Shown here piece after piece: positions 11,537 to 17,151 of a stretch of DNA of 21,330 nt (position 1 is the first letter of the stretch; each line of letters starts with the position of its first letter). This DNA comes from a virus. Where the stretch lies: the IMG/VR virus record IMGVR_UViG_3300020205_003184, positions 1-21,330 of that record; one strand, written 5' to 3'. Below the pieces are notes generated by a model. That model was not told where the DNA came from and ran no database searches. It saw only the letters and a list, made by a program, of their open reading frames with translations. A program made the translations under genes and the position numbers.

Positions 11537-12304
11537 TTACTGGCCCTTGTCAATGGAAATGACGAAGGGAACGCCGCCTGGGTAGAACTGCTCAAAATAC
11601 CGGCCAGTTTTGTCGTTCATGATGGAGGCTTGACAGGCAAGCTCTGCGCTTGAAAGCGCAACCACTTGAGCCTCTTCTCCCTCGCCAGTGTCAGGATCGT
11701 AAATAGCGATAGCACAATAAGCTCCATCAATTTCAATGCCATACATTTGTTCAATTGCTTGGACATAAGCTCCAAGCTGCATCTTGTAATCAGCAAGTTG
11801 ATATTCAGCTTTTGCCTTGTATGAGGTTTTCCAGTCCAAAAGTACAGTCCTTCCATCTTTAAGAACCGCCAGCATATCAAACGTACCGGCATAACCAATA
11901 AGCTTAATTGGGCAGTACCAAACAATTGCACTTTCCACTAATAGTGGACGATCAATTGTTTCTAGGAAGCCTTCAATGGAATGGAAGTAAGGGCGAAAGG
12001 CCTGGTTTGATTCTAGGTGCTGTTCAATGTCCTCGCCGTTCCATAGATCCTCCATCACGGCATGAAGCCAATTGCCTCTCTCCACTGCATTGCGAGTGCG
12101 ACGATTTGCCTCCTGATCTCCCACACGCTTGCGCCAATTGATCAGAGCCATGATCTTGCCTACGGGCGAGCAGGAACTGGCTATGGTCGTAACGGAAGGC
12201 AAGACGAGTCCGGCTGGCACCATAGAGAGACCCTCTGGTGCGATGTAATGCCGCCGCTTGTCAATTTGAATGCGGTTAGGGGAGAACTTAGTTAAATTCA
12301 ACAC
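11537..12304 (-). CDS. RecB-like PD-(D/E)XK exonuclease
   Basis: A 255-residue protein starting at GTG 12304. The RecB/Cas4-type motifs are in order: 'ERGNWLHAVMEDL' (75-87, His81), 'LLVESAIVW' (121-129, Glu124), 'GYAGTFDMLAVLKDG' (137-151, Asp143), 'VLLDWKTSYKAKAEY' (154-168, Asp157 and Lys159) and 'QLADYKMQLGAYVQAIEQ' (169-186, the Q-x(n)-Y motif). These enzymes degrade duplex DNA ends or process single strands, and in phages they pair with an annealing protein. No four-cysteine Fe-S cluster of the Cas4 type is visible. The DUF1071 annealing protein lies in the same operon, which makes a two-component recombination system likely. The start overlaps the upstream gene by 17 nt. Confidence 0.87.
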   Translation of the reverse strand: MLNLTKFSPNRIQIDKRRHYIAPEGLSMVPAGLVLPSVTTIASSCSPVGKIMALINWRKRVGDQEANRRTRNAVERGNWLHAVMEDLWNGEDIEQHLESNQAFRPYFHSIEGFLETIDRPLLVESAIVWYCPIKLIGYAGTFDMLAVLKDGRTVLLDWKTSYKAKAEYQLADYKMQLGAYVQAIEQMYGIEIDGAYCAIAIYDPDTGEGEEAQVVALSSAELACQASIMNDKTGRYFEQFYPGGVPFVISIDKGQ

Positions 12305-12776
12305 GACGAGTCCCCCGAACTCTCCTGACGGTTTGTATGATCATAGAGCAGTGGTAATTGGAAAGCCAAGCGTGTTCCTTGCTCGCGTCAAAAATAATAA
12401 TTTCCCCTATGCGCAGTTCTAGCCATTGCCTAGATGAGTAAAGCGATGGCCTGAGACCTATTCCTCGCTGACTTTTGTGCAATGGCTTAACATTTACAAG
12501 CCATAAAGCAACAAGTCCAAATCTCTCGTCACAATGAGGCTCAATACTGCCTTTGCAGTAGGTAAGAGATAGCGAAGAGTAGTGAGTGCTGTTTCTTGTT
12601 GCGTAACCGTTTTTGATTAGTAATTGGAAAAAATCAAAACATGGTTCTTTACTTATCCCCGTATCGTAAATCTCGCCAACACTCATCCCTTTATCTTGCA
12701 CAAGAAATCTATCATTGCTAATCGAACCTTTGACAAGTGCTAATGGTGGAGGCTCAAGAATGCCAATACTTTTCAT
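12288..12776 (-). CDS. Putative cupin / 2OG-Fe(II) oxygenase-like protein, 162 aa
   Basis: I do not recognise a named family. The C-terminal two-thirds fits a double-stranded beta-helix metal protein. 'YCKGSIEPHCDERFGLVALW' contains His-x-Asp as in 2-oxoglutarate oxygenases. It is followed by 'LELRIGEIIIFDASKEHAWL', with the Gly-Asp/Glu turn and a second His, and then a distal 'QTVRRVRG' arginine strand. In such enzymes HxD...H binds iron and the Arg binds 2-oxoglutarate. Possible substrates are a nucleic-acid base or a protein, but none can be read from the sequence. The gene is more A+T-rich than its neighbours and may be newly acquired. It is coupled by a 4-nt overlap to the zinc-ribbon gene and overlaps the RecB-like gene by 17 nt. 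Confidence 0.62.
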   Translation of the reverse strand: MKSIGILEPPPLALVKGSISNDRFLVQDKGMSVGEIYDTGISKEPCFDFFQLLIKNGYATRNSTHYSSLSLTYCKGSIEPHCDERFGLVALWLVNVKPLHKSQRGIGLRPSLYSSRQWLELRIGEIIIFDASKEHAWLSNYHCSMIIQTVRRVRGTRRVEFN

Positions 12777-13057
12777 GATACTTTTTCCTCTTGACGGCTA
12801 CGGCGAAGTGGAGATGGAATGCGCTGGTTTGTATCACGGTCCCAAGTGATGTTACAGAAGGGACAACAATAGGCAAATACTCTATCTTCCTGGCGGGAAG
12901 ACAAAGCAATCACCTTAGAGAAAAACTTGCTGGAAGCATCGTAGAAGCCGTTGTCAATTGACTCCTGGGGAATAGGTTTTCCTTGCCAGCTTTTCTTGCA
13001 CACTGGACAAGCTTCCATCTTGGTAAAATCAATTGGTGCTTGCTTTTTCTTGGCCAT
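12773..13057 (-). CDS. Zinc-ribbon protein, 94 aa
   Basis: The start is taken as the ATG at 13057 ('MAKKKQAPIDFTKMEACPVC'); an in-frame ATG at 13105 would add 16 atypical residues. Two CxxC pairs are separated by about 48 residues: 'ACPVCKKSW' and 'YCCPFCNITWDRD'. This is the layout of a zinc ribbon with a long insert. The N-terminus is lysine-rich and the C-terminus is Arg-rich ('RIPSPLRRSRQEEK'), so nucleic-acid binding is plausible. It overlaps the next gene by 4 nt. Upstream, the -1 frame extension of the DUF1071 gene runs 29 nt into this gene, so its translation may be coupled to frameshifting. No closer family can be named. Confidence 0.7.
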   Translation of the reverse strand: MAKKKQAPIDFTKMEACPVCKKSWQGKPIPQESIDNGFYDASSKFFSKVIALSSRQEDRVFAYCCPFCNITWDRDTNQRIPSPLRRSRQEEKVS

Positions 13058-13160
13058 CAGGAAGGAACAGTTCAATGGGACTGGACAGTGGATCGTGAAA
13101 TTCATCGACGACTATTTGGCCCCCAAATGCTTTCGCAAAGGAGGCCGTCGCCGTGTCTAC
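13029..13160 (-). CDS. -1 frame extension of the DUF1071 protein, 43 codons
   Basis: The frame entered by a -1 slip at A-AAA-AAG reads 'VDTATASFAKAFGGQIVVDE', then 'FHDPLSSPIELFLPDGQEKA' and 'STN', with a TGA at 13029-13031. Its composition looks like a real protein: a short helix, a beta strand and an acidic/Pro turn region. Upstream in this frame a TGA occurs 13 codons before the slip site. There is no ATG, GTG or TTG between that stop and the slip site, and none between the slip site and the first 20 extension codons. The segment therefore cannot be an ordinary separate gene. Translated together with the zero frame it gives a 363-residue protein. It fills the 99-nt gap between the DUF1071 stop and the zinc-ribbon start. 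Confidence 0.62.
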   Translation of the reverse strand, partial: VDTATASFAKAFGGQIVVDEFHDPLSSPIELFLPDGQEKASTN

Positions 13161-13166
13161 TTTTTT
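13109..13166 (-). promoter_or_regulatory. Candidate programmed -1 ribosomal frameshift signal
   Basis: On the minus strand the heptamer A AAA AAG (13166-13160) is in the correct register: zero-frame codons are GGA AAA AAG TAG. After a 9-nt spacer a stem forms from CGAC + GGCCTCC (13150-13141 plus C13140) pairing with GGGGGCC (13124-13118) + GTCG (13112-13109), with an AAATA bulge. Inside it is a small TGC-GAAA-GCA hairpin. A purine-rich GGAGGG lies directly 5' of the heptamer. This is the standard layout of a bacterial -1 frameshift site (slippery heptamer plus stem). Confidence 0.7.
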
Positions 13167-14119
13167 CCCTCCACAAACAGTTTCGCTGCTTGAACGGCTT
13201 GATCAACAGTGCCTTCAGTGCAAATGGCACGAAGCGTGTCCACTTCTTTCACCATTGCAGCCTTGGCCACGGTGATGTTGTTTTTCGCCATCCAAGACGA
13301 AAGCATGGTCACTACTGCATTAGCAAACATGCCGCTGTCCTTAAGGTCTTCGCCTCGTTTGAGGCCAAGATTTTCAAGGGCATCCTTGGCGGCCATCATA
13401 CTGGAGCGCTCGTCCCCATAGTCAAAGGGATTGGCCTTAGCAAAGGCTAGAAGGCTTGCTTTCCCGTCGAATTCGACGGCATTGGCGGCAGGAGCTGCTT
13501 CGTCTCCAGCAGGAGCAGCAGTTGCTGAAGCCTCCGCCGGTTTCGTGCTTGCCCTCGGAGCAGGCTTCTTTGCTTCCTGTTGCAGCGCGAGTTTGGGCTG
13601 TTCCTTTTCATCGCTCTTGGGGATGTCCTCGCCAGAGTACAGTTTGAGACCAAGGCCAGTGAACGTAGCAATGCACTTCACGCTAGCCCGCTGGATGTTG
13701 TCACTTACTGCCCGCGCATCAAGCTCTTTGAGAGCATTGTGCTTGTTGTCCATAAGAGGGAATACAAGCGCAGGAGTGCGGCTGCAACCATCCGTAAGGT
13801 AGGGACGCAGAAGCCAGCAACCATTTTGACCAAACACTGGCCAGCCCAATGTGCTTTCTTCAAACGCAACGTAGAGGCTAGGAAATTCCTGCTTGAGATA
13901 GCGGAAAGCAAAAGGCCAAGATAGATAAGAAAGGCCCTTGTAGTTCTTCTCGACGTGCTCTCCGATGGGGAGGTCGTAGGCCTGGAGAAACTGCTCAGCA
14001 GTGATAGAGAGGGGAGAAAATAGGCCATTCATGCGATCAGCAAGAGCAAGAGAAGAGGGGGTGTCCATTTGGAAGGCGGGCAGGGCAATCATGGTATCAT
14101 GGAAAGAGCTTTGGGTCAT
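13157..14119 (-). CDS. DUF1071 single-strand annealing protein (Rad52-like), zero-frame product
   Basis: A 320-residue protein starting at an ATG that overlaps the upstream stop by 4 nt. The N-terminal domain carries the DUF1071 pattern: 'LSYLSWPFAFRYLKQEFPSL' (63-82), 'VFPLMDNKHNAL' (119-130) and 'SDNIQRASVKCIATFTGLGL' (139-158), then 'KLYSGEDIP'. This family groups with Rad52/Erf-type phage annealing proteins that pair complementary strands during recombination. A low-complexity Ala/Pro/Lys/Glu linker (about 175-215) leads to a helical C-terminal domain. The stop TAG at 13157-13159 directly follows A-AAA-AAG, and an open -1 frame continues for 43 codons, so a 363-residue form is likely as well. 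The gene is in one operon with the RecB-like nuclease. Confidence 0.88.
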   Translation of the reverse strand: MTQSSFHDTMIALPAFQMDTPSSLALADRMNGLFSPLSITAEQFLQAYDLPIGEHVEKNYKGLSYLSWPFAFRYLKQEFPSLYVAFEESTLGWPVFGQNGCWLLRPYLTDGCSRTPALVFPLMDNKHNALKELDARAVSDNIQRASVKCIATFTGLGLKLYSGEDIPKSDEKEQPKLALQQEAKKPAPRASTKPAEASATAAPAGDEAAPAANAVEFDGKASLLAFAKANPFDYGDERSSMMAAKDALENLGLKRGEDLKDSGMFANAVVTMLSSWMAKNNITVAKAAMVKEVDTLRAICTEGTVDQAVQAAKLFVEGKK

Positions 14120-14385
14120 GCCTCCTCAGTGGAGGAGTCAAGCTTGAAGTGGTTGTCGTAGAAGATGACAAGCCTTTGAGGGAGCGGTCCTTCGTCGGTC
14201 ATAATACTTTTACCAGGAAGAGCCCAGTCATCAATCAAACGAACATCACTAATGCCTTCAGAACTGGCCCTGGAGAAGCCATCTTCCATGGCACTTTGTT
14301 CGTAATGCAACAACACTTCTGCATCTTGTGCGGCATGAGAGAGCATTGCAATGGTGAGAATGTGGTAAAGCTCAGACAGTTTCAT
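14116..14385 (-). CDS. Hypothetical protein, 89 aa
   Basis: The start is the ATG at 14385, preceded by a pyrimidine run (CTCTTTCTTTTCCCCTG) and no Shine-Dalgarno motif; an in-frame extension to 14496 would run through the upstream gene. The protein begins with a helix 'MKLSELYHILTIAMLSHAAQ'. The segment 'DAEVLLHYEQSAMEDGFS' follows, then 'DVRLIDDWALPGKSIMTDEG', and an acidic end 'DNHFKLDSSTEEA'. The 'A..AEV.....ED.......DVR..DD' pattern is common in small phage proteins of unknown role. It overlaps the RHH gene by 14 nt and the DUF1071 gene by 4 nt, so it is within the operon. Function unknown. Confidence 0.66.
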   Translation of the reverse strand: MKLSELYHILTIAMLSHAAQDAEVLLHYEQSAMEDGFSRASSEGISDVRLIDDWALPGKSIMTDEGPLPQRLVIFYDNHFKLDSSTEEA

Positions 14386-14614
14386 CAGGGGAAAAGAAAG
14401 AGGAGTCGTTGGTGTGGTCAATGCAGGATTGCCAGGCTTCGTCAGAAAGAACAAAGCCTGCTTCCCACACGGGAGTGGAGCGAATGAGGCGTTCAAGGGC
14501 CTCGCTGCGAGAAAGAGAGGTTTCTTTGGCTATTGCATCAAGGTGGTCCGAAGCGGTTTGCGTGAGTGTGACATGGCGCTTGGTCTTGGGCTCGTCGTGG
14601 TAACTTTTCTTCAT
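14372..14614 (-). CDS. Ribbon-helix-helix type DNA-binding protein, 80 aa
   Basis: The ATG at 14614 overlaps the stop of the upstream gene by 4 nt. The N-terminal region 'KRHVTLTQTASDHLDAIAKE' followed by 'TSLSRSEALERLIRST' is a ribbon-helix-helix pattern: a basic beta strand (RHVTLT), a first helix (DHLDAIAKE) and, after 'T.LSRSE', a second helix (ALERLIRS). Such small proteins form dimers that bind operator DNA with the strand. The C-terminal part ('VWEAGFVLSDEAWQSCIDHT') is specific to this group; I recall close relatives in picocyanobacteria and their phages. It probably regulates phage genes, perhaps its own operon, but no operator was identified. Coding confidence is high and the DNA-binding call is good. 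Confidence 0.8.
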   Translation of the reverse strand: MKKSYHDEPKTKRHVTLTQTASDHLDAIAKETSLSRSEALERLIRSTPVWEAGFVLSDEAWQSCIDHTNDSSFFSPDETV

Positions 14615-15123: not shown

Positions 15124-15169
15124 GGCCCATGGCCTGCCATAGTGGGAGGTGCTCCCCGATCCCTGCTTC

Positions 15170-16054
15170 ATGACCTTCTCAATCCTGGACTTCCTGGACC
15201 AACTGGAACCCAGCAAGGAAGGCGGGAAATTCATCTGTCCTGCTTGTGGCGGAAACGATTTCAGCGTCAACAAAAAGAATGGTGCCTACTCCTGCTGGCA
15301 CGATACGTCTCCTGCTCACCGTGCCGAAATCAGGGATGCCTTGGCTCCAATGGTGCGATGGGAAAAGCCAAAGCGTGATCCTGGATACTATACATTCCCT
15401 TATAGGAATACTATTGGCGAGGAAGTTGTCATTGTCCACCGTGATGACAAGTCTGGCAGCAAGCACATTTGGCAAGACTTCCCTTCCATTGACAAGAATT
15501 CCACCAACCACAAAGGCCAGCTTCAGGAAGTAAAAGCAAACGTATTGCCTTATCGCTATAACGAAGCAATCGCTGAAAGTGACAAGACTGGCTTGCCAAT
15601 CATTGTCGTAGAAGGAGAACTCACTTGCGAAGCAGTGTGGGCAATTGGCCTTCCTTCTATCACCTTTCTTGGTGGCAGCAAGCAGTATCGCACCAATGGC
15701 GACTACTCTGCGCTCTTTAAGAACAAGAAGTTAGTTCTTGCTCCTGATAGAGACGAGCATGGCGTGGCATTCATGAAAGAAGTGGAGGTGGACAATCCAG
15801 GCGCCTCTTGGCTTTACGCTGATCCACGATCCTGGGAATGCGGAATCTTCCAAGTGGTGATGGCCTTGATCTTGCTGACTACATTGAAGAAGGAGCCACG
15901 AAAGAAGACCTGCTTGCTTCCATTGTTTCCAAGAGCCAGCACAGTGGTGTTGATGGCAAGCCTGCGTATGAAGAGATCATTTCAGCCGTGGAGAACTTTG
16001 TCGGCCTCTATGCAAACGATGCTCGTATTGCCTACGAAACTGGCAACTGGCTAG
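15170..16054 (+). CDS. Phage primase (zinc ribbon + TOPRIM), C-terminus frameshifted
   Basis: The ATG at 15170 gives 294 residues; a GTG at 15149 is an alternative. A CHC2-like zinc ribbon opens the protein: 'FICPACGGNDFSVNKKNGAY' then 'SCWHD' (Cys23, Cys26, Cys42, His44). TOPRIM motifs follow: 'LPIIVVEGELTCEAVWAIGL' (about 142-161, catalytic Glu) and 'KKLVLAPDRDEHG' (Asp-x-Asp). Primases make RNA primers for lagging-strand synthesis. The conserved part ends near 'LYADPRSWE' (about 15837). After that the frame yields low-quality text, while the frame one base earlier resumes the expected 'NLPSGDGLDLADYIEEGATK'. The last about 72 residues are therefore probably a frameshift artefact or a mutation. 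The helicase overlaps from 15838. Confidence 0.8.
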   Translation: MTFSILDFLDQLEPSKEGGKFICPACGGNDFSVNKKNGAYSCWHDTSPAHRAEIRDALAPMVRWEKPKRDPGYYTFPYRNTIGEEVVIVHRDDKSGSKHIWQDFPSIDKNSTNHKGQLQEVKANVLPYRYNEAIAESDKTGLPIIVVEGELTCEAVWAIGLPSITFLGGSKQYRTNGDYSALFKNKKLVLAPDRDEHGVAFMKEVEVDNPGASWLYADPRSWECGIFQVVMALILLTTLKKEPRKKTCLLPLFPRASTVVLMASLRMKRSFQPWRTLSASMQTMLVLPTKLATG

Positions 16055-17151
16055 AGCAACGTGGCGTGAAGATGAATCAAAGCAACGTCGAGAAGATCAT
16101 TGAAGAAGCTAAAACGCGCATCTATGGTAGGGAAGAAATTGAAACCATTGATGCTCTTACCATTGCCAATGCAGACCAATGCAGGGAATGGCTGATTGCT
16201 GGCATTATGCCTTTGGGAAGTGTGATGCTTTTAGCTGCATCGGGCGGTACTGGAAAATCGACTATTGTTTACAACTGGGCATTGAACATTGCTTTAGGCC
16301 AATCATGGAGCGGAAGACGTTGCATGCAAGGCAAGAGCCTCATCATCCAAAGCGACGAACCTTTAGTTGACACCAGCGAGAAACTTGGCGTGATTGGTTA
16401 TCAAGATGCCAATCTTGAGCCTGGCACTGTTGCATTCTGGGAGAATTGGCGCTTTGGTCACATGAAACAGCTAGAAGATTACGTTAGGAAGAATCGGCCA
16501 GTCTTTATTGCTATTGACTCTCTCACTGCTTGTCTTGCTGGCATGGACGTGGACTTAGTAAAAAGTAATGCTGGTGACGTTATCTATGGTCTGCGCGATA
16601 TCGCCAATCAATATAAATGTAGCATCATCATTCTTCACCACTTGAATAAGAGTGGAGGCCTGCGAGATAGCACTAGCTTTGTTGACAACGTGAGCGAAGT
16701 GGTGAAGCTCACCAAGGCAGAGAACAATCCCGACCCAAATCAGTTCACCATGGAATGGCTCAAGAGTCGCTCTGGTCTCACTGGCAAGCACTATCTGCAG
16801 CGCGACACGCTTTCCTATGGCTGGCGCTATGCAGGGCCTGCTAGTGGCTCCCTTGATGCTCTCGATCGGGTGGTTAATGCCGTGAACATGCGGAAGAACG
16901 AACGTCTCTCCCGTCAGCAGGTGGCAGCCATCACGGGCAGCTTTGAAATTAGCACCACTGGTAAGATGCTGGAAGTGGCACGTCGTCAAGGCCTGATCAC
17001 CAGTTCGTTCTTAAGTGGACCAAACGGTGAACATCCGCGAGTGTACCACTCTTGGGAATACACTGGCACGATGGAAGAAACTACGGAGGAGCCATTCATT
17101 CCACCCATTGAACAAGCGGATTCTGAAGAAAAAGAGGAATGGTTCTTCTAG
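15838..17151 (+). CDS. Phage replicative helicase / RepA-DnaB-like ATPase
   Basis: A 437-residue ATPase from the ATG at 15838. The N-terminal 110 residues ('LPSGDGLDLADYIEEGATKE' onward) look like the linker that normally joins primase to helicase. Walker A is 'AASGGTGKST' (133-142, Lys140), followed by 'VYNWALNIALG'. Walker B is 'PVFIAIDSLTACL'. A sensor-like 'CSIIILHHLNKSGGLRDST' precedes 'NVSEVVKLT', as in RepA/AAA_25 helicases. The C-terminus has a helix-turn-helix-like region ('LSRQQVAAITGSFEISTTGK') and an acidic end. It unwinds the replication fork with the primase. Whether it starts independently at 15838 or was once fused to the primase is unclear; no good ribosome site precedes the ATG. 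Confidence 0.85.
   Translation: MRNLPSGDGLDLADYIEEGATKEDLLASIVSKSQHSGVDGKPAYEEIISAVENFVGLYANDARIAYETGNWLEQRGVKMNQSNVEKIIEEAKTRIYGREEIETIDALTIANADQCREWLIAGIMPLGSVMLLAASGGTGKSTIVYNWALNIALGQSWSGRRCMQGKSLIIQSDEPLVDTSEKLGVIGYQDANLEPGTVAFWENWRFGHMKQLEDYVRKNRPVFIAIDSLTACLAGMDVDLVKSNAGDVIYGLRDIANQYKCSIIILHHLNKSGGLRDSTSFVDNVSEVVKLTKAENNPDPNQFTMEWLKSRSGLTGKHYLQRDTLSYGWRYAGPASGSLDALDRVVNAVNMRKNERLSRQQVAAITGSFEISTTGKMLEVARRQGLITSSFLSGPNGEHPRVYHSWEYTGTMEETTEEPFIPPIEQADSEEKEEWFF

Follow-up and report, generated by a model that had tools for sequence, protein, structure and literature searches.

Whether ribosomes reading the gene of a phage annealing protein slip into the -1 frame just before its stop codon, and so make a second, longer protein, is the question raised by this locus. 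The window (the whole stretch of DNA analyzed, 21,330 bases) is an IMG/VR virus record, and its nearest isolate in the phage collection is the Synechococcus siphovirus S-CBS4. Positions 13157–14119 on the minus strand encode a Sak-type single-strand annealing protein (PF06378, DUF1071) with a normal 0-frame product of 320 aa, which matched the Pfam SSAP_Sak profile at 61.9 bits, above the curated cut-off of 22.3, and PHROG 8492, Sak-like annealing protein, with an E value of 1e-40. The gene ends with ...GTG GAG GGA AAA AAG TAG, placing the slippery heptamer A_AAA_AAG (13160–13166, minus strand) in the X_XXY_YYZ register directly before the 0-frame stop codon TAG (13157–13159, minus strand), as read from the sequence. 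The -1 frame extension (13029–13160, minus strand) comprises 43 codons, VDTATASFAKAFGGQIVVDEFHDPLSSPIELFLPDGQEKASTN, and a TGA at 13031–13029, and it lacks a start codon upstream, as there was no ATG, GTG, or TTG over the 12 codons from the previous stop to the slip site. A presumed stimulatory stem-loop (13103–13155, minus strand) follows the heptamer and consists of a 7-bp lower stem and a 7-bp upper stem with a 5-nt bulge and an inner TGC-GAAA-GCA hairpin. The next gene in the list of open reading frames (12773–13105, minus strand) encodes a small protein with two CxxC motifs, for which Pfam and PHROG profile searches gave no confident family. The gap between sak and this gene is 99 nt when the start at 13057 is taken and 51 nt with the first ATG (13105), and the extension overlaps the gene whichever of the two starts is used.

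An earlier note, made from the sequence alone, had claimed the in-register heptamer directly before the stop and a -1 frame open for 43 codons to the TGA at 13029–13031 without ATG, GTG, or TTG, and both claims held. The gap of 99 nt that it gave holds only if the next gene starts at 13057. Its stem also held, but the fold adds 3 bp below the CGAC at which the note had begun the stem, which puts the lower stem 6 nt from the heptamer instead of 9.

To compare this arrangement among relatives, one protein-seeded IMG/VR scan provided 72 full-length relatives, and more were obtained from scans seeded with S-CBS4 and others. The queries were short peptides spread over Sak, and since none of them came from the extension, the scans do not select for the frameshift site. 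The merged set contained 173 readable loci, or 120 non-redundant genes after removal of near-copies at 95% identity. Nearly all of these homologues are metagenomic contigs, and the phages carrying the signal are aquatic and mainly cyanobacterial. Three further contigs could not be read likewise, two having upstream frame breaks (L143 and L309) and one running off the contig (L182); despite its upstream break, AAAAAAG and the tail are still visible in L309. The only prophage or genome relative was one contig (L265, NYTN01000042.1) binned in a Rhodobiaceae metagenome-assembled genome. It was identical to an IMG/VR phage contig (L191), which both its 20,518 bases and its Sak gene end match, and it is likely to be a mis-binned phage.

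A canonical heptamer was present before the stop in all 173 loci, that is, in 120/120 non-redundant genes, as A_AAA_AAG in 88 and G_GGA_AAG in 32, both of which have been described as shift-prone in E. coli (PMC5009743). Because every one of the 120 relatives keeps a heptamer while neither motif occurred at any of the 36,495 other in-register positions of the same genes, the conservation is far beyond chance. The distance from the heptamer to the stop was 0, 3, or 21 nt (21 nt in two genes) and thus varies across homologues, whereas the -1 peptide remains constant. In the two genes with the longest distance (L193 and L196), the 0-frame stop is shifted into the stem region, and the -1 peptide is unchanged. 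When the motif type was placed on a Sak tree from which the last residues had been left out, at least nine parsimony changes were required, two of them forced by strongly supported branches. The motif has therefore switched repeatedly, changing the encoded residues (KK vs GK) and keeping the slipperiness. No conserved upstream stimulatory element stood out among the relatives. A Shine-Dalgarno-like GGAGGG adjoins the heptamer in the window; it is not conserved in the relatives and was not counted as a stimulator.

The -1 frame was open in 120/120 genes, for 23–43 codons, with the consensus (A)(V/I)DLAAARLARAFAG-x-(I/V)-(V/C)-x-D-x-D-G-S-P (n = 120), in which the glycine was invariant (120/120) and the F was found in 97%. 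Over 20 codons in 115 aligned genes, pN/pS was 0.47 in the -1 frame, 1.01 in the 0 frame, and 1.54 in the +1 frame, and the first sequence set had given 0.48 for the -1 frame. These values count all pairs and are uncorrected for relatedness or saturation; the evidence lies in the contrast between frames. Stops within the same 20 codons occurred in 0/115 genes in the -1 frame and in 97/115 in the +1 frame. The comparison thus shows that the -1 peptide is under purifying selection, and that this holds in the -1 frame only. The extension peptide had no Pfam, PHROG, or meaningful PDB match elsewhere, its consensus gave no tblastn hit in 50,697 phage records, and no credible second copy was found in the loci of the homologue set. 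For S-CBS4 the tail peptide is VDLAAALLARAFAGTVCADADDNPLTESPWTT; it lies in the gap after sak and is unannotated in the record. A 31-aa ORF, gp078 (NC_016766.1, 56615–56710), is annotated in that gap on the opposite strand and is probably spurious.

The stem-loop in the window has 14 bp with a bulge, and its spacer from the heptamer is 4 nt to weak outermost pairs and 6 nt to the lower stem. Its minimum free energy was -27.4 kcal/mol (z -4.7), with none of 200 dinucleotide shuffles as stable, and none of 200 sequences with resampled synonymous codons was as stable either (z -3.6). Upon resampling synonymous codons from each gene, z was below -2 in 38/46 sequences, with a median of -3.1. In the main stem class (83 distinct sequences), the upper 7-bp stem was paired at 96.9%, compared to a shuffle maximum of 85.7%, with 57 double-change cells (e.g., CG to GC and CG to TA), and the lower stem at 92.8%, compared to a maximum of 90.7%. 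A second class of 14 sequences, folding in a different register, also covaries; a third arrangement is seen in the clade of the window itself, and a fourth in the FKGQ group. In most members, the stem starts about 4–9 nt after the heptamer. These comparisons show that the stem-loop is under selection, being more stable than the codons require and having many compensatory changes. There was no convincing hairpin in the LALCFNG group (L035, L040, L051, and L058; z 0.2 to -0.9) or in L039 (z -0.4), and the folds of L189, L191, and L192 were weak. Searches at the window gave no credible Rfam family and no terminator-like site on the minus strand. A sub-threshold Rfam match to the cyanobacterial thermometer Avashort (26.6 bits vs a cut-off of 88) lies inside the small CxxC coding sequence (12952–13021, minus strand) and is likely due to chance.

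The usual features of a -1 frameshift signal are thus met: an in-register X_XXY_YYZ heptamer, a stable structure about 5–9 nt downstream (except in a few members), and a selected open -1 frame. As the three occur together, it is very likely that programmed -1 ribosomal frameshifting produces a C-terminally extended Sak. The evidence is comparative and the product is inferred, without peptide, ribosome-profiling, or reporter data. This supports the main claim of the earlier note, for which it had proposed a comparison of homologues; heptamer, stem, and -1 frame proved conserved, with selection in the -1 frame, and none of the cases that would have refuted it (a stop without the heptamer, a degenerate -1 frame, or a fused A-run) occurred in the 173 loci. 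In the proposed mechanism, most ribosomes on sak would stop at TAG and release the 320-aa annealing protein, while some, made to pause by the stem-loop that lies a few nucleotides further on, would slip back one base at A_AAA_AAG (G_GGA_AAG in others), miss the stop, and add 23–43 residues. The predicted long form in the window has 363 aa, Sak-VDTATASFAKAFGG....

We considered four other explanations. The first is that the -1 frame is a separate small overlapping gene, with its own start or translated by termination-reinitiation. In its favor, an ATG, GTG, or TTG lies in the -1 frame of 25/120 genes, after the preceding stop and ahead of the slip site. However, this explanation is very unlikely, because 95/120 genes, including that in the window, have no start codon there, and where a start is present, its position is not conserved. 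Directly after the heptamer comes the conserved DLAAA core, without any conserved start, and a separate gene leaves the conserved heptamer and stem unexplained.

The second is that RNA polymerase slips on the A-run and yields mixed mRNAs, of which those with one additional nucleotide would be translated normally into the long form. The window has six consecutive A, and polymerase slippage is a known alternative at such runs, as is generally recognized and also discussed in PMC5009743. Nevertheless, we regard it as very improbable, because the site lacks any run longer than three in about a quarter of the genes (32/120 use G_GGA_AAG, whose runs do not exceed three bases). Moreover, it is slippage of the ribosome, not of the polymerase, that is marked by an X_XXY_YYZ register, a short spacing, and a covarying stem downstream.

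According to the third, the stem-loop has a different role, as a terminator, as a processing site, or in regulating the gene that follows, and the long protein arises only by accident. The stem adjoins the beginning of the following gene, and an overlap of the extension with the next ORF is seen in 34/115 loci, so that effects on that gene are possible. Even so, this reading has very little support: the absence of a terminator-like site and of a credible Rfam family speaks against it, and it explains neither the amino acid-level selection in the -1 frame nor the conserved heptamer. The fourth, a base-calling or assembly error in the A-run of a gene that is truly one fused frame, is all but excluded: single-base breaks do occur (in the primase/ATPase gene of the window near 15838 and upstream in L143 and L309), but the same frame relation is found in 120 non-redundant genes, many of which have no homopolymer above three bases there, as well as in the genome of the isolate S-CBS4, and no permanently fused form was found among the 173 loci.

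Programmed frameshifting therefore remains the preferred reading, and we examined how far it extends among Sak proteins. Neither the heptamer nor the tail was found in the Sak genes read outside the clade (staphylococcal, Weissella, Vibrio, the Mastigocladus phage CHP58, and two uncultured), and in the staphylococcal, Weissella, Vibrio, and CHP58 genes the C-terminal domain is absent as well. Because these other phage genes are without the heptamer and the C-terminal domain, we consider the frameshift signal to be a lineage trait, not one general to Sak. A distant viral scan seeded with CHP58 returned more of the clade that carries the signal. At the Sak end of Lactococcus phage P008, which belongs to another clade (L348, about 1485–1500), an in-register G_GGA_AAA stands directly before TAA with a -1 frame open for 35 codons; this is likely a coincidence, as it overlaps the presumed ribosome-binding site of the next (SSB) gene, though conservation in 936-type phages was not checked.

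A close phage parallel is the tail assembly chaperone G/GT of lambda, in which, as proposed for Sak, a -1 slip toward the end of its upstream gene gives short and long forms with a common N-terminal part (PMC5009743). Lambda G/GT slips at G_GGA_AAG. A review lists the same motif as the G-T site of HCTV-5 and describes it as highly shift-prone (PMC5009743). Unlike G/GT, Sak is a DNA-annealing protein with an extension of only 23–43 residues, and its signal includes a strong covarying stem-loop, whereas some tailed-phage shifts seem to lack stimulators (PMC5009743). From the motif and the stem, the slip efficiency may be expected to exceed the lambda G/GT level, which is possible but an inference only. 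The Sak gene also does not meet the criterion for a tail chaperone, a G/GT pair beside the tape measure gene, and lies instead in a recombination and nucleotide cluster with an exonuclease. E. coli dnaX (tau/gamma) resembles Sak in combining A_AAA_AAG with a downstream stem-loop; the dnaX stem-loop and an efficiency of 50% are described in PMC4066793. It yields two isoforms of an oligomeric DNA-metabolism protein, of which the shorter is the frameshift product, and the slip is assisted by a Shine-Dalgarno-like element upstream. In Sak, by contrast, the frameshift product would be the longer form, and no such element is conserved. The frameshifts of T7/T3 gene 10 and of the phage A2 capsid gene likewise provide, as a minor product, a C-terminally extended version of a protein that forms oligomers (PMC5009743), but these are structural proteins with extensions unrelated to that of Sak.

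An AlphaFold2 model of the 0-frame protein has a Rad52-like annealing domain (80alpha Sak, Z 10.1; Mgm101, Z 7.9; RAD52, Z 7.6), a low-confidence linker (residues 165–214), and a confident five-helix C-terminal domain. The Sak of staphylococcal phage 80alpha (PDB 8pq8 and 8qe9) thus shares the DUF1071 annealing domain by profile and fold (Z about 10), but the Sak genes read from staphylococcal and other records outside the clade are without the C-terminal helical domain, heptamer, and extension. No structural relative of the helical domain stood out, the structure search being dominated by the annealing domain. Since the last helix (305–319) ends at the 0-frame stop, the tail could prolong this helix and contribute a short hydrophobic stretch; this is a possibility only, inferred without modeling the frameshifted form.

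What the long form might do is more uncertain. A PD-(D/E)XK exonuclease, the presumed partner of Sak, is encoded at 11537–12304 on the minus strand (PF12705, E 2e-8; PHROG 298 exonuclease, E 8e-45), and its gene adjoins Sak in 101/102 loci. The C-terminal part of lambda Red-beta, which like Sak has an annealing domain and a C-terminal part, is needed for contact with the Red-alpha exonuclease and for recombination beyond annealing (PMC5052646). No relation between the two C-terminal parts has been shown, and to our knowledge no frameshift is reported for Red-beta. Because the neighboring exonuclease gene matches the two-component annealase/exonuclease arrangement and Red-beta offers this precedent, we propose that the tail extends the last helix and allows a small number of subunits in a Rad52-like oligomer to contact a partner (the exonuclease, SSB, or the replisome), with the slip rate setting the ratio. 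Extended subunits would be a minority in the oligomer, the tail would be a docking element absent from most of them, and the exonuclease would be the first candidate partner. We hold this proposal with some doubt, the balance tipping slightly against it, since it is inferred, with neither the partner nor the ratio shown. In a bolder version, which we would also not quite back at present, the slip rate fixes the proportion of tailed to untailed subunits so that the exonuclease or the replication machinery finds just one docking tail, or a few, on each Sak oligomer. If true, this ratio would be a built-in stoichiometry control for phage recombination, bringing the principle of gpG/gpGT and DnaX to a Rad52-like annealase. 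The suggestion in the earlier note that the longer form alters binding to the RecB-like nuclease remains a guess, as the nuclease is a near-constant neighbor and there are no contact data.

The open-access literature searched contained no account of frameshifting for phage annealing proteins, Sak, or DUF1071, in agreement with the earlier note, although a report in a subscription journal is not excluded; frameshifting goes unmentioned in two papers about annealing proteins of the Sak type. Phage frameshifting is listed for tail chaperones, capsid and tail proteins, Mu, and others (PMC5009743; PMC10885494). The mechanism is hence of a known type, in a gene class, that of a recombination protein, for which we found no earlier report. 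Frameshifting has been documented mainly for phage tail, capsid, and transposition genes, with DNA-polymerase genes also well known, and a signal kept in 120/120 divergent recombination genes suggests that phages use it in DNA metabolism too. Further gains are a set of naturally occurring -1 signals, in which two heptamers are interchangeable and the stems take several different shapes, and a conserved peptide missed by gene callers; the locus also gives a handle on why annealing proteins carry C-terminal parts and on how many partner contacts an annealase oligomer needs.

Two neighboring genes gave further observations. The gene directly upstream of sak (14116–14496 in the window, 126 aa, no family) is present in 83/102 loci and possibly belongs to the same functional unit. 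The RecA-family ATPase/primase gene (15149–17151) is split into two frames in the window, with a break near 15838 and no slippery site, while it is a single 662-aa ORF in S-CBS4 and the relatives L003, L005, and L009 align in one frame; the break probably reflects an error of one base in sequencing or assembly, or else it is real. In L004 (minus strand, about 220–1270), the Walker A motif of this gene (GGTGK / STIVYN) is interrupted by an insertion of ~340 aa that keeps the reading frame. The region had no Rfam family at threshold, and the insertion, which starts with AQPLW and ends with IVTHN, resembles an intein.
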